NCBI GenBank assembly: GCA_902770965.1 | Contig: CACXUY010000015.1 | Coordinates: forward strand, 1-64,000 | Direction: 5' to 3' | Origin: an uncultured Lachnospiraceae bacterium | Lineage (GTDB): Bacteria; Bacillota; Clostridia; Lachnospirales; Lachnospiraceae | DNA length: 64,000 bases | The notes under the pieces: model-generated | What the model saw: the letters and a program-made list of their open reading frames with translations, nothing else | What the model was told of the DNA's origin: nothing | The model's database searches: none | Made by a program: the position numbers and the translations under genes | Part shown: one piece after another, positions 5,674 to 10,456 of the stretch | Position numbering within the stretch: the stretch's first letter is position 1 | How the letters are laid out: every line of letters starts with the position of its first letter

Positions 5674-8600
5674 ATGACTTCAGTATTTTCTTGGGAAAGC
5701 TTTACAAGGATGCATGGCGGAGAACCTGGTGCACGAGATGTGTTTGAAAAGCTAGTTGATGAACTGCTTCGCGAGGAAAATCCCGGAAGGGATGTTCATA
5801 ATATCAAAGCAGTACAAGGAGATGGCGGAATAGATGTTTATGTTGATCAAGAGAAGGGTATTGATATCTATCAATGTAAGTTTTTTATGGGAAGCATGAA
5901 TACTAGCCGGTGGAATCAGATTAAAGAATCTTTTTCCAGAGTGATGGAATTCAAAGAAATGAATGTGCTTCATTGGTTTCTTTGCATGCCTAGGGAAATG
6001 CAGAAGGAAGATATTAAGAAGTGGGATAAATTTAAAAATGACAGAAAGTCATATGGTATAGAGATCCGATTTGTCGATGGAAACGAGATTATAAATCGTA
6101 TGCAGAGCTGTGATCGGGATAGTGGGACTGGACTGATTGAAAAGTATTTTATTGGTGGAGGTAAAGGACTAAATAAGAAACACATAAATAATTATGATGA
6201 CCAAGCGGATACCCTTGATTTCCACAAGGTCCGCAAGCTTGCAGACGGTCTCTGGGTCAATTGGGAGACGGGCCGTCTTGCAAAGGATTTTCGCTCGGCA
6301 CGATCATTTGATCAGGGAGAGCAAGGGAGCGAGGAAGTCGGCGCAGGGAAGCTTTCCCCTACCCAGCTTCGTCTGCTTTCTGTCCTTGTTCAGGGCGAGG
6401 GTATCACTGTCAGTTTAGAGGAGCTGTTCTGGAGAGGCAGACTTTTTCCGAAACGGAAGGATAAATATGCCATCGAGATTAATGCTGTAGATGACAAGTG
6501 TGCGGACGATAGTCGTGCAGATAGCAAGAATGCAGATGGCAAGAGTTTAGATAGCAAGGGCACAGATGACAGTAGTGCAGATGACAGCAGTGCAGATGGC
6601 AAGGGTGCTGATGATAGTAGTGCACATGATAGTGGTGCAGATGGCAAGAGTACAGTCCTAGCTCTGAAAGCTCAGAGGGAACCGACCCGGGAAGAGATAG
6701 AGGAGATAGCAAAAGAAGAGACAGAATCACTTCGTACGGTTTTAACAAAGTTTTGCAACAGCGATTCCGGCGTGATTCTGTCGGCAGAGGATGGAAAGGG
6801 TTTTTATTATTCAACTTCTTTCAAAAAAGAGAGGAATGATTCCGAGGAGGATCTCTTTTCCGAATATGAAGGCTGTTCGTCAAGAGAAGATTATAATAGT
6901 CTGAAAACAGAACTGAATGGAGGCAAGGCTTACTGCCAGAATGCACAGGCATGGTTGAGGCGTTACTATAATGATCTCTGCTGCTTCTTCGAAAGCAGGG
7001 TTACAAATGCGAGAAACAGCAGCAAAAGTGAAGCGGAAGTCTTTGGCGACTACACCATGGTTGAAGCTTACATGAACGCCTATTCGGACACTAGCAACAG
7101 CAATGAACGGTCAGAAGTTCTGTTGGACGTTGTGGAGAACTGGCACACAAGAGACGATGCTTTTGGAAAGGTGCTCGTGCTACACGGACAGCCGGGTGAT
7201 GGCAAGTCGACCTTCTGCAAAAAGGCAGTCTATGCGCACTGCAAAGAAGGGTGGCTGGTAAAGACCCCACAGGTCTTTTATTTCAGCATCAATACTGCGG
7301 ACAGTGTGATCTATGAAGGCAAAGAAATGAATCTTGCGAAAGCCTTCTGCATATCTGATAAGTTTAAGAACAGATATCCTCTGGATCTTAGCATATTGGA
7401 AGAAGTAGCACTAAGTGATAAGGCCACGAAGGACGTGCTCAGGGGTTCCCTCATCATTCTGGACGGCTTCGATGAGTTTGTCAGCGGTCGGACAAATGAA
7501 TCGGGCACGATTTCCTTCTCAGGCTTCTACGATGAAGTACAGGAATGTGCCGGGAGGCTGCACTGTAATGTCATCATCACGTCCCGGACGATGTGCATCG
7601 AAGCAGAACTGAAAGGGACGAAATTCAACGATCCATCCGAGACCAATGTGGCTTCTTTTGCTCCGATGAAGATCGATCGGCAAAGGGCTATGATCGACCG
7701 GATGATTGAGCTGGAAAGAATCGGACGGAATAAAAAGGGTTCCTGCTCGTCTGCTGAAAAACAAGAAAAGGAAGTTGCGGAATGGGAAAGAAAAGCGAAG
7801 CAGCTGGAGGATTACCGGGACAATGTATTAGAGAAGATCTGGCTCGGCAGCAATCAGAAATACGAAAAGATAGAAGAGCTTCTGAGAGTCCCGATTTTGT
7901 TCCGAATGATTACAGCCATGCAGTTCAGGGATTTTGAGCAGACAGATACCGTAGCTGAACTGTACAGCCATCTGTTCCATTCGCTTTTGAAATACAAGAA
8001 ATACGAAGAGACTGAAAAGCACGATAAAAAGCACGATAAGGGGAAGAGCTTAGAGGAAAAACTGGTTGAGAGGTATGAAGAAATAGCCATCGGCATCCTC
8101 AATTACGGCAATGGGATCTGTCCATTTCAGATAAAGGATGATCTGGACGAGAAGCTGGTGTACTACTTCTATACAACAAGAGATGGCAATGGACTTGGGT
8201 ACATTGGTTTCCTGCACACATCCTTCTATCAGTATTTTCTTGCCAGGTTCATCGTCTCCGCAGTGAGAAAACTTGCGCTCACCATGTCAGAGCAGGCAGC
8301 CTCCTCAGATGATAAATCCTTTCCGGAGGAGTTTATAAAATTGTTCACAAGCCTGAGAGCTGAAAAGATCGGAGACCCGGATTTCTGGAAGCTTGTTTCG
8401 CAGCTAGCCCGGTTTGAGCAGGAAGAGAATCGTTATGGCGCGGACAACGACTGTCTTTTGTTCCATTCGCACAAAAAGCGTATCGGGCAGGCGCACATTC
8501 GGTATGTGCTCGGCTGTCTGAACCGAGAGGATCTGATCGAGCATGTTATGCGAAAAGGCGATCCCTACGAAAGGTGTGATGCTCAGGATGGTATAAGCAG

Positions 8601-10440
8601 GAAGAGAAACCGCTTTGAGGATATGGAAAACGCAATCTTCAACCTCGTCAGTGCCTGCACTGCGATCGAAAAAGGCTGTCTGGCGAAAAATGAGGTGAAT
8701 GAGAAGACGTTGATAGACATGTCGGCGGACAATAAAGAAAACAAATACAACAAAGAAAACAAGTACCACAAAGACCGCATCACTTACGTTGATTATCCGA
8801 ATGTCTGCGAGCTTATCCGCAGAGGGAATTACAGCGGTCTTTTTCTGGAAGAAGTGAATCTGGACAGCTGCAGCCTGGAGAATGCGCATTTGAGCAGCGC
8901 ACATCTTGCCGGTGTTTGCCTGAATCATACGAATCTGGACGGAGTGGATCTGGAAGGAGCGGATCTTCGCGGAGCTTTTCTTCAGAACGCAAAGATGCGA
9001 AAGGCAAATCTGGCAAAGGCGGTTCTTGACGAAGCACACATGGAGCAGGCCGAACTGCATTTTGTCGGGAAGGTGATGGATCCGATCGCTTCTGGACCTT
9101 ATGGAACCGATTATTATGCGTCAAGAATACGAGAGGAAGGAGCTAATCTGGAAGGAGCCAGCCTTAAAGGCGCACATCTGAACGGAGCGTTTCTGGCAGG
9201 AGCGAATCTGGACAGGGCGGATCTGCGAAAGGCATGTCTGGAAAGCTCGATTTTGATTGCGGCAAGTTTAAAGGGCGCTTATTTACGCGGTGCGGATTTC
9301 AATGATGAACTGGGCGTAAGCAGACCGGGACCGTCCCACAGAGCAGATCTTTGCGCAGCAGATCTGCATAAGGCCAATTTGGAAGACGCAAGGCTGGAGG
9401 GTGTGAATCTGGTCTGGGCGAACCTGAAGGAAGCATCCCTCGTCCGGGCGAATCTCCACAAAGCCCAGCTGGGGCGTGCATGCCTAATTGGTGCGTCCTT
9501 AGAAGAGACGGATCTCAGGGGAGCAGATTTTGAAAACGCGAATCTTGACGAAGCGTACTTGAAAAGAGCAAAGCTTGACAAGGAAACAGTGAGCAGTCTT
9601 GACAGTTCCAGCCTTAGAGGCGCTTACCCTGACGATGATCAGATAAAGCAGGCAGCAGAATGGGGTTTTACTGATTTTAGGAAAAAAACGGAAAGGAACA
9701 GAATTCATCGACTGCTGATAGTATCTGAGGAAGAGAAGACATTTAAAGAAATCCAGGACAGCTTTCCGGATATCCAGAAATCGATTATTCGGAAACCGAA
9801 TATCCGAAAAGAGATGATCGTGGCTTTTGGTCGATATCCACAGGACGTTCAAAACGAAAGCGGACTCTTTGTTCCCGAACCGCTTTTGTGGCGTGTGCTT
9901 GAAGTGGACGAAAAACAAAAACGAGCACTCTTAATCACGGAAAGGTTGATCGATTGTAGGGGATATCACGAACGATGGGAAGATATTACTTGGGGAAAAT
10001 GTACTTTAAGGCAGTGGATGAACGATGATTTCATCCGACAAGCCTTTACGGCGGAAGAAGCATCGCTGATTTTGAGGGTGTGGAATGAAAATCCGGGTCA
10101 TTATAGGAGAGGCATGAGAGGCATAGACATGTACGTTGATGACGGAAATGCAACTTGGGACAGAGTTTTTGCGCTTAGTTTGGACGAGGTGAGGAGAAAA
10201 GACTATTTCAGCAACCCGAATGCCAGAACAGCAAGCATGACGCTCTACGCAAAACAGAAAACTTCAGACGGATATTATACGGGCTGGTGGTGGTTGCGCT
10301 CGCCCGGCATCCATAGTAACTATGCTGCGTGTGTCCTCACCTACGGCGACGTCGCTTATGAGTACGGTTACTCCGTCGATTATTCTGGTGCTTCTGTTCG
10401 CCCCGCTTTGTGGCTGAATCTGGAATCTGAAATCTTTTAA
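5674..10440 (+). CDS. Mrr-like nuclease / winged-helix / NACHT NTPase / pentapeptide / DUF6273 protein
   Basis: A 1588-residue multidomain protein with no membrane segment. Residues 1-165 look like a PD-(D/E)XK nuclease: E25, GGID (D54) and QCK (Q67, K69). Residues about 185-370 resemble an OmpR-type winged helix (LADGLWVNWETGRLA, LSPTQLRLLSVLV, LRTVLTKF...GKGFYYS) split by an Asp/Ser/Ala-rich tandem-repeat insert at about 271-328. A NACHT-type NTPase follows: Walker A GQPGDGKST (505-513) and Walker B LIILDGFDEF (593-602), with helical sequence up to about 1050. Pentapeptide A(D/N)LxG repeats fill about 1056-1303 in three blocks. Residues 1382-1588 are DUF6273, ending WWWLRSPG...VRPALWLNLES. 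The layout suggests a STAND-type sensor with a nuclease effector, plausibly anti-phage. This role is inferred. GAGGG precedes the ATG. Confidence 0.8.
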   Translation: MTSVFSWESFTRMHGGEPGARDVFEKLVDELLREENPGRDVHNIKAVQGDGGIDVYVDQEKGIDIYQCKFFMGSMNTSRWNQIKESFSRVMEFKEMNVLHWFLCMPREMQKEDIKKWDKFKNDRKSYGIEIRFVDGNEIINRMQSCDRDSGTGLIEKYFIGGGKGLNKKHINNYDDQADTLDFHKVRKLADGLWVNWETGRLAKDFRSARSFDQGEQGSEEVGAGKLSPTQLRLLSVLVQGEGITVSLEELFWRGRLFPKRKDKYAIEINAVDDKCADDSRADSKNADGKSLDSKGTDDSSADDSSADGKGADDSSAHDSGADGKSTVLALKAQREPTREEIEEIAKEETESLRTVLTKFCNSDSGVILSAEDGKGFYYSTSFKKERNDSEEDLFSEYEGCSSREDYNSLKTELNGGKAYCQNAQAWLRRYYNDLCCFFESRVTNARNSSKSEAEVFGDYTMVEAYMNAYSDTSNSNERSEVLLDVVENWHTRDDAFGKVLVLHGQPGDGKSTFCKKAVYAHCKEGWLVKTPQVFYFSINTADSVIYEGKEMNLAKAFCISDKFKNRYPLDLSILEEVALSDKATKDVLRGSLIILDGFDEFVSGRTNESGTISFSGFYDEVQECAGRLHCNVIITSRTMCIEAELKGTKFNDPSETNVASFAPMKIDRQRAMIDRMIELERIGRNKKGSCSSAEKQEKEVAEWERKAKQLEDYRDNVLEKIWLGSNQKYEKIEELLRVPILFRMITAMQFRDFEQTDTVAELYSHLFHSLLKYKKYEETEKHDKKHDKGKSLEEKLVERYEEIAIGILNYGNGICPFQIKDDLDEKLVYYFYTTRDGNGLGYIGFLHTSFYQYFLARFIVSAVRKLALTMSEQAASSDDKSFPEEFIKLFTSLRAEKIGDPDFWKLVSQLARFEQEENRYGADNDCLLFHSHKKRIGQAHIRYVLGCLNREDLIEHVMRKGDPYERCDAQDGISRKRNRFEDMENAIFNLVSACTAIEKGCLAKNEVNEKTLIDMSADNKENKYNKENKYHKDRITYVDYPNVCELIRRGNYSGLFLEEVNLDSCSLENAHLSSAHLAGVCLNHTNLDGVDLEGADLRGAFLQNAKMRKANLAKAVLDEAHMEQAELHFVGKVMDPIASGPYGTDYYASRIREEGANLEGASLKGAHLNGAFLAGANLDRADLRKACLESSILIAASLKGAYLRGADFNDELGVSRPGPSHRADLCAADLHKANLEDARLEGVNLVWANLKEASLVRANLHKAQLGRACLIGASLEETDLRGADFENANLDEAYLKRAKLDKETVSSLDSSSLRGAYPDDDQIKQAAEWGFTDFRKKTERNRIHRLLIVSEEEKTFKEIQDSFPDIQKSIIRKPNIRKEMIVAFGRYPQDVQNESGLFVPEPLLWRVLEVDEKQKRALLITERLIDCRGYHERWEDITWGKCTLRQWMNDDFIRQAFTAEEASLILRVWNENPGHYRRGMRGIDMYVDDGNATWDRVFALSLDEVRRKDYFSNPNARTASMTLYAKQKTSDGYYTGWWWLRSPGIHSNYAACVLTYGDVAYEYGYSVDYSGASVRPALWLNLESEIF
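6484..6655 (+). repeat. 15-bp tandem repeat inside winged-helix region
   Basis: About eleven imperfect copies of a 15-bp unit encode ADDSS/ADGKG pentads. The array splits the winged-helix domain of the 1588-residue protein. The period keeps the frame, so copy-number change would alter only linker length. Confidence 0.85.
10282..10440 (+). other. Candidate diversified variable region at DUF6273 C-terminus
   Basis: From the ATC after SPG up to GCT in VRPA, 31 of 33 consecutive codons end in C or T, unlike the rest of the gene. Adenine-directed mutagenesis of AAC/AAT codons in a template repeat would give such NNY codons. The region closes with a conserved VRPALWLNL stretch where a homing site would sit. 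No template repeat or reverse transcriptase is visible in this window. Confidence 0.45.
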
Positions 10441-10443
10441 TCC

Positions 10444-10456
10444 TGCGCGAAGCGCA
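10444..10456 (+). other. Small hairpin just after the stop codon
   Basis: TGCGC-GAA-GCGCA starts 3 nt after the TAA of the large NACHT gene. It has no T-run, so it is a poor terminator. Some diversity-generating retroelements have a hairpin at this place next to the homing site; the similarity here is only positional. Confidence 0.4.

Follow-up and report, generated by a model that had tools for sequence, protein, structure and literature searches.

Has the end of a large NACHT-protein gene in an uncultured Lachnospiraceae bacterium been written by a diversity-generating retroelement (DGR), and if so, from where would that element act? The gene lies in a stretch of 64,000 nucleotides (positions 1 to 64,000 of contig C15, here called the window) of a draft genome (G000; 2.80 Mb in 78 contigs, 93.65% complete), and its product joins a nuclease-like domain, a NACHT-type NTPase, pentapeptide repeats and a C-terminal DUF6273 domain. 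We conclude that the C-terminus is very probably a DGR-written variable repeat (VR) on an Avs2/NLR-type sensor, and that the DGR serves, or not long ago still served, dispersed targets in trans. The variable block, the pattern of variation at template adenines, the templates and reverse transcriptases (RTs) of relatives, and the domain architecture are established at the level of sequence; what we infer from these is retrohoming in the strain at hand, binding of a ligand by the tip, a sensing role with activation of the nuclease, and defence against phages.

The initial annotation of this DNA had drawn attention to a run of 31 codons out of 33 that end in C or T (NNY codons) near the end of the DUF6273 domain. 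The count is correct, and the run (10303-10401) is the maximum of the gene, the best non-overlapping stretch having 25 such codons. The remainder of the gene lacks the bias, as had been stated, with 50% NNY codons outside the last 60. The span that had been given, 10282-10440, holds the run and is slightly wider than it, the run being made up of the variable core and a few flanking codons. Amino acid composition of the DUF6273 C-terminus might be thought to produce such a run, since N, D, Y, H, F and C have NNY codons by definition and a DUF6273 protein encoded on contig C16 also carries 25 in 28. However, when codons were resampled synonymously, with the amino acids kept and the codon use of the rest of the gene applied, the mean was 21.9 of 33 and none of 100,000 draws reached 31, which rules out composition alone as the cause. 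Codons of the four-fold, Ile, Leu, Arg and Ser type (n=21) end in C or T in 20 cases, against 10.9 expected, and only 19 of 28 codons are NNY in C5c, a TIR-DUF6273 protein that is more diverged. We give the composition explanation next to no credence.

The block that contains this run, of about 155 bp, is present at five places in the genome, on contigs C15 (the window), C61, C25, C5 and C6. The last 160 bp or so of the gene are 78-83% identical to the four other copies, and the five-copy alignment has near-constant ends (GGGCTGGTGGTGGCTGCGCTCGCC... and ...GTTCGCCCCGCTTTRTGGCT), a variable middle, and similarity that continues beyond the stop codon. The variable core of the window copy is longer by one codon (GCT) than that of the other copies. 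The sites at which these copies differ were compared with the template repeats (TRs) of three independent relatives (G386, G467 and G565). Since template sites were treated as independent, the p-values are nominal: variation is found at 24 of the 27 sites where all three templates have A, as against 9 of the 51 where none does (p=8e-10), and for the G386 template alone at 27/33 A sites against 12/57 other sites (p=1.8e-8). By codon position, the first and second vary in 17 and 16 of 32 codons and the third in 7 of 32. This concentration of variation on template adenines and on the first two codon positions supports the DGR interpretation. The initial annotation had set against its own proposal the case of a template missing from the genome and its relatives together with ordinary synonymous-biased variation; what was found instead is templates in relatives and variation away from third positions.

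Diversifying selection combined with gene conversion among paralogous receptors, with no reverse transcription involved, would also give a block common to paralogs, and positively selected tips would likewise vary mainly at codon positions 1 and 2. Such a process predicts neither the C or T in the third position of codons with a synonymous choice (20/21), nor the match to adenines of templates from other genera, nor a block homologous to the TR and VR of complete cassettes. The codon resampling and the adenine-site comparison disfavour it strongly, and we hold it to be very improbable.

Just upstream of the block, the copies within the genome are 46-61% identical and their synonymous sites are mostly changed, whereas most such sites in the block flanks are identical; in each of the 11 pairs compared, synonymous sites were more often identical in the flanks than upstream, with nominal p<0.05 for 9 of them. 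Homogenised flanks beside diverged upstream DNA indicate that the block was written separately from the rest of these genes.

Homologous cassettes are found in related genomes. A predicted template with A at every variable position, used as query, recovered real templates there. In G386 the cassette consists, in order, of a DUF6273 gene with a VR, an Avd-like gene, the TR and the RT, and all 24 of its TR-to-VR changes fall at template adenines. The same arrangement is complete in G467, a member of another family of the same order; G297 has a similar cassette with the same block, and G565, from the genus of G001 (a further Lachnospiraceae genome), has an RT and a template rich in AAC and AAT. 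The check that had been proposed, a search for a template next to an RT, is thus answered in relatives, where homologous templates stand beside DGR RTs, and fails in the genome's own assembly. In the PDB, the G386 RT is most similar to reverse transcriptases of the 8ub7 group (E=1.5e-47), which we take to be the structures of the Bordetella phage BPP-1 DGR. The G386 Avd matches the NCBIfam model DivGenRetAVD below the model cut-off. Among phages, the closest RT is that of nd12 (47% identity), a DGR phage (PMC10743442).

The 3' side of the block shows further correspondence to these cassettes. Its constant flank is common to the templates of relatives up to CCCGCTTT. Both the C-terminal VRPALWLNL stretch and the small hairpin after the gene, which the initial annotation had reported, are present. 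The hairpin starts at +34 from CGCCCCGCTTT, and those of the complete cassettes at +34 (G467) and +33 (G386). The hairpins of C25 and of locus L036 of G001 lie at 51 and 53, and G564, a genome of another genus, has GGCGC-GAAA-GCGCC further downstream. In BPP-1, a downstream hairpin is needed for efficient homing, and hairpins of phage DGRs have a stem of 7-10 bp and a GRNA loop (PMC3240598). As hairpins with GAA-type loops are also present elsewhere in the genome, the hairpin by itself is weak evidence, and it is the offset that counts. In the same region, the TAA stop after CTG in the C61, C25 and C5 copies (TAATCTG; three of the four other copies) reads GAA in the window copy, which adds the residues ESEIF.

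A ready-made DUF6273 tip might also have been recombined in from the DGR targets of prophages, in which case retrohoming would never have acted on the host protein. Gut phage DGRs do carry VRs in DUF6273 domains (PMC10743442, PMC11792537), and the G386 RT has phage relatives. However, the homogenised part is the block of about 155 bp only and begins at the start point of the templates. The DUF6273 sequence upstream of it has diverged roughly as much as the remainder of the proteins, and it is the NACHT gene itself that carries the conserved stretch and hairpin at its end. We therefore consider such a capture unlikely.

Several observations weigh against a DGR acting on this gene. No RT was detected in the 2.80-Mb assembly, either with the PF00078 profile, which did find the RTs of G386 and G297, or by matching the G386 RT protein, and a DNA search of the same draft returned no template-like match, although absence from a draft is weak evidence. 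Neither RT nor template was found in G001, and in G564 the predicted template matches the VR only, with no second match. The window hairpin, with a 5-bp stem and a 3-nt loop, is shorter than the phage DGR consensus. The evidence of variation comes from five copies within one genome, the only genome of its genus. Comparison of a DUF6273 model with the PDB gave insignificant lectin matches only and thus did not recover a C-type lectin fold. Furthermore, the window copy differs from the others in 8 columns for which an A in the template is no ready explanation (C6 in 7, the C5 gene, C5a, in 2, and C61 and C25 in none), which points to a different template or to drift; with these departures and its extra codon, it may derive from another template version or may be older.

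Further searches found no match beyond this genome. The exact flank and template patterns had no match in viral contigs, the predicted template none in phage records, and the NACHT region none in plasmids; among 397 genomes of the family, the NACHT region matched two copies in this genome only. The window holds neither template nor RT, as had been noted. Either the cassette resides on an element that escaped draft assembly or binning, or this lineage no longer has it.

Loss would make the block a relic, written by a DGR in the past and now subject to ordinary mutation and selection. This differs from a DGR active in trans in what it says about the present, the DGR origin being common to both, and we judge it almost as probable as not. 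It is favoured by the missing RT and template in the assembly (for all its 93.65% completeness) and in G001, by the lack of a further template match in G564, by the fact that two of the five copies (C61 and C6) are gene fragments, and by the unexplained departures in the window and C6 copies. On the other side, fragmented draft assemblies can miss a mobile cassette of about 3 kb, and C61, C25 and C5a fit one template with 0, 0 and 2 departures while their upstream synonymous sites have mostly changed, so that writing is recent relative to the divergence of the genes.

Table 1. Features of the sensor gene and its variable end (window coordinates)
Feature	Position	Strand	Basis
Nuclease-NACHT-pentapeptide-DUF6273 protein, 1588 aa	5674..10440	+	Open reading frame, Pfam, PADLOC LmuA
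N-terminal nuclease-like effector domain, aa 15-148	5716..6117	+	PADLOC LmuA E=3.5e-15
NACHT/STAND NTPase core, aa 487-662	7132..7659	+	Pfam NPHP3_N, motifs
Pentapeptide-repeat solenoid, about aa 1059-1304	8848..9585	+	Pfam PF00805 E=4e-43, NCBIfam
DUF6273 domain, aa 1418-1582	9925..10419	+	Pfam PF19789 E=2e-24
Constant 5' flank of variable block, GGGCTGGTGGTGG...CCCGGC, protein WWWLRSPG	10281..10308	+	Nearly the same in the genome's five copies
Variable core, 29 codons, 27 NNY	10309..10395	+	
Constant 3' flank, GTTCGCCCCGCTTT-GTGGCTGAATCTG, VRPALWLNL	10396..10422	+	Alignment
Conserved segment that separates variable repeat and hairpin, GAATCTGAAATCTTTTAATCC	10423..10443	+	Alignment
Hairpin TGCGC-GAA-GCGCA, candidate target-recognition element	10444..10456	+	

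The protein that bears this end had been described as a nuclease-NACHT sensor (Table 1). Pfam bears out the DUF6273 domain (86.6 bits against a gathering score of 23.5), the NACHT-type NTPase and likewise the pentapeptide repeats. In the NTPase core, NPHP3_N scores above its cut-off and the NACHT model below its own, and the core holds a Walker A motif (GQPGDGKS, aa 505-512) and a Walker B-like motif (LIILDGFDE, aa 593-601). The nuclease part is supported by matches of the N-terminus to LmuA and of that of the G564 ortholog to LmuA and Avs2, which make a nuclease probable, and it contains the motif GDGGIDVYVDQEKGIDIYQCK at aa 49-69; the N-terminal nuclease had no significant match among PDB sequences, and in PADLOC no Avs family model matched the window protein and no whole-length Avs match was obtained. 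The DUF6273 fold model has a predicted local distance difference test score (pLDDT) of 82, and its best viral matches include models of phage DUF6273 proteins. A low-complexity repeat rich in Asp, Ser and Ala (ADDSSADDSSADGKGADDSS) lies between the nuclease and NACHT parts, at about 6490-6670 of the window.

We propose that a template repeat rich in AAC and AAT would be copied by an error-prone RT that places random bases opposite adenines, and that the cDNA would replace the block at the end of DUF6273, guided by the constant 3' flank and the downstream hairpin. The product would be an immune sensor of Avs2/NLR type, with a LmuA/Avs2-like nuclease as effector, NACHT as the switch for oligomerisation, a solenoid of pentapeptide repeats, and a DUF6273 tip that would bind ligands through its randomised residues. 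A ligand on the tip would lead to NACHT assembly and hence to activation of the nuclease. Several dispersed targets would be served in trans by the DGR, now or in the recent past, from a cassette outside this assembly.

Other genes share this architecture in whole or in part. G564 encodes a nuclease-NACHT-pentapeptide-DUF6273 ortholog with a variable tip of its own, whose N-terminus matches LmuA and Avs2 in the nuclease part only. The two proteins are 37% identical over the nuclease, 53% over the NACHT core and 46% over the constant part of DUF6273; identity rises to 100% in both block flanks and falls to 32% in the variable core. The paralog C5a keeps the NACHT-pentapeptide-DUF6273 body (NACHT E=6.6e-8, above cut-off) with a different N-terminus. 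A third version, with a weakly DUF4365-like N-terminus, is found in G001 (Lachnospiraceae metagenome-assembled genome S14M_St_42; L036:589-5629, minus strand), where it is split into two open reading frames between the NACHT and pentapeptide parts, by a frameshift, an assembly error or because there are two genes.

Additional DUF6273 proteins and neighbouring genes were observed. Three neighbouring genes on contig C5 (L025:9508-15876, minus strand) have an N-terminal TIR domain and two of them end in DUF6273; the first, C5b, has 29/36 NNY codons and recognisable block flanks, and its tip and that of the second, C5c, look as if they were older or decayed variable tips. The DUF6273 protein of contig C16 (L085:6348-7148, minus strand) appears membrane-anchored and has its 25 NNY codons in the same segment, with no close DNA match to the block. 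Near the G564 ortholog, a similar nuclease is fused to a bSEFIR-type domain (contig C235; L100:3-1580, minus strand; PADLOC bSEFIR E=1.7e-71), which suggests a defence island. Secreted-looking multi-domain proteins with DUF6273-like segments are encoded in G001 (contig C365, L070) and G566 (contig C4, L101:3602-5575); the DNA after their RPALKLNL (TCATCTGTCATCTTC) resembles the stretch that follows the VR in the window, and they are possibly further old targets.

How does this sensor relate to known systems? With Avs2 and other antiviral STAND proteins it seems to share an N-terminal Avs2/LmuA-type nuclease, a STAND NTPase and a C-terminal sensor; unlike in Avs2, that sensor consists of pentapeptide repeats and a DUF6273 VR. 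We know of no characterised Avs sensor that is DGR-written. STAND/NACHT proteins with C-type lectin (CLec) tips are DGR targets in Thiohalocapsa PB-PSB1 and other multicellular bacteria, where they are proposed to be antigen sensors and some are apparently served in trans (PMC10907252). The window protein resembles them as a STAND NTPase with a DGR-written C-terminal tip and as one of several targets. In contrast to their CLec- or FGE-type tips, adapter- or protease-based effectors and multicellular hosts (PMC10907252), it has its nuclease in the same chain, a DUF6273 tip on a pentapeptide solenoid, a Lachnospiraceae host, and no cassette in the assembly. DUF6273, which is reported to resemble C-type lectins in other proteins, carries the VR in gut phage DGRs such as those of tentaclins and Faecalibacterium prophages, the latter with the VR at the DUF6273 C-terminus as here, and a phage RT is homologous to that of G386; those targets are phage-encoded and thought to serve receptor binding or decoration, whereas ours is a cellular NACHT protein (PMC10743442, PMC11792537). 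VMAP-ternary conflict systems likewise include a conflict-system protein with a DGR-diversified C-terminal domain, but have a vWA-MoxR-VMAP architecture and an FGS domain and occur in cyanobacteria and gammaproteobacteria (PMC7159879). The literature searched, with most subscription papers outside its coverage, does not describe nuclease-NACHT proteins with DUF6273-VR tips, and the nuclease-fused version, which is scattered over Lachnospiraceae in the form of targets without a cassette, appears to be new.

We put forward, tentatively and as the less probable extension of the trans-acting DGR, that a single DGR, perhaps mobile, rewrites the tips of several NLR-like receptors in living populations of this gut- or rumen-type Firmicute and so maintains an anticipatory repertoire; the receptors would be the nuclease-NACHT protein, another NACHT protein and possibly the TIR proteins. 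The finding adds Lachnospiraceae to the multicellular environmental bacteria in which DGR-written immune-type sensors were known, and suggests that DGR targets may sit far from any cassette and be detectable by codon pattern alone. It also places a variable tip and a recognisable nuclease effector in one polypeptide, so that a simple test is possible of whether the sequence of the tip sets the trigger of the nuclease.
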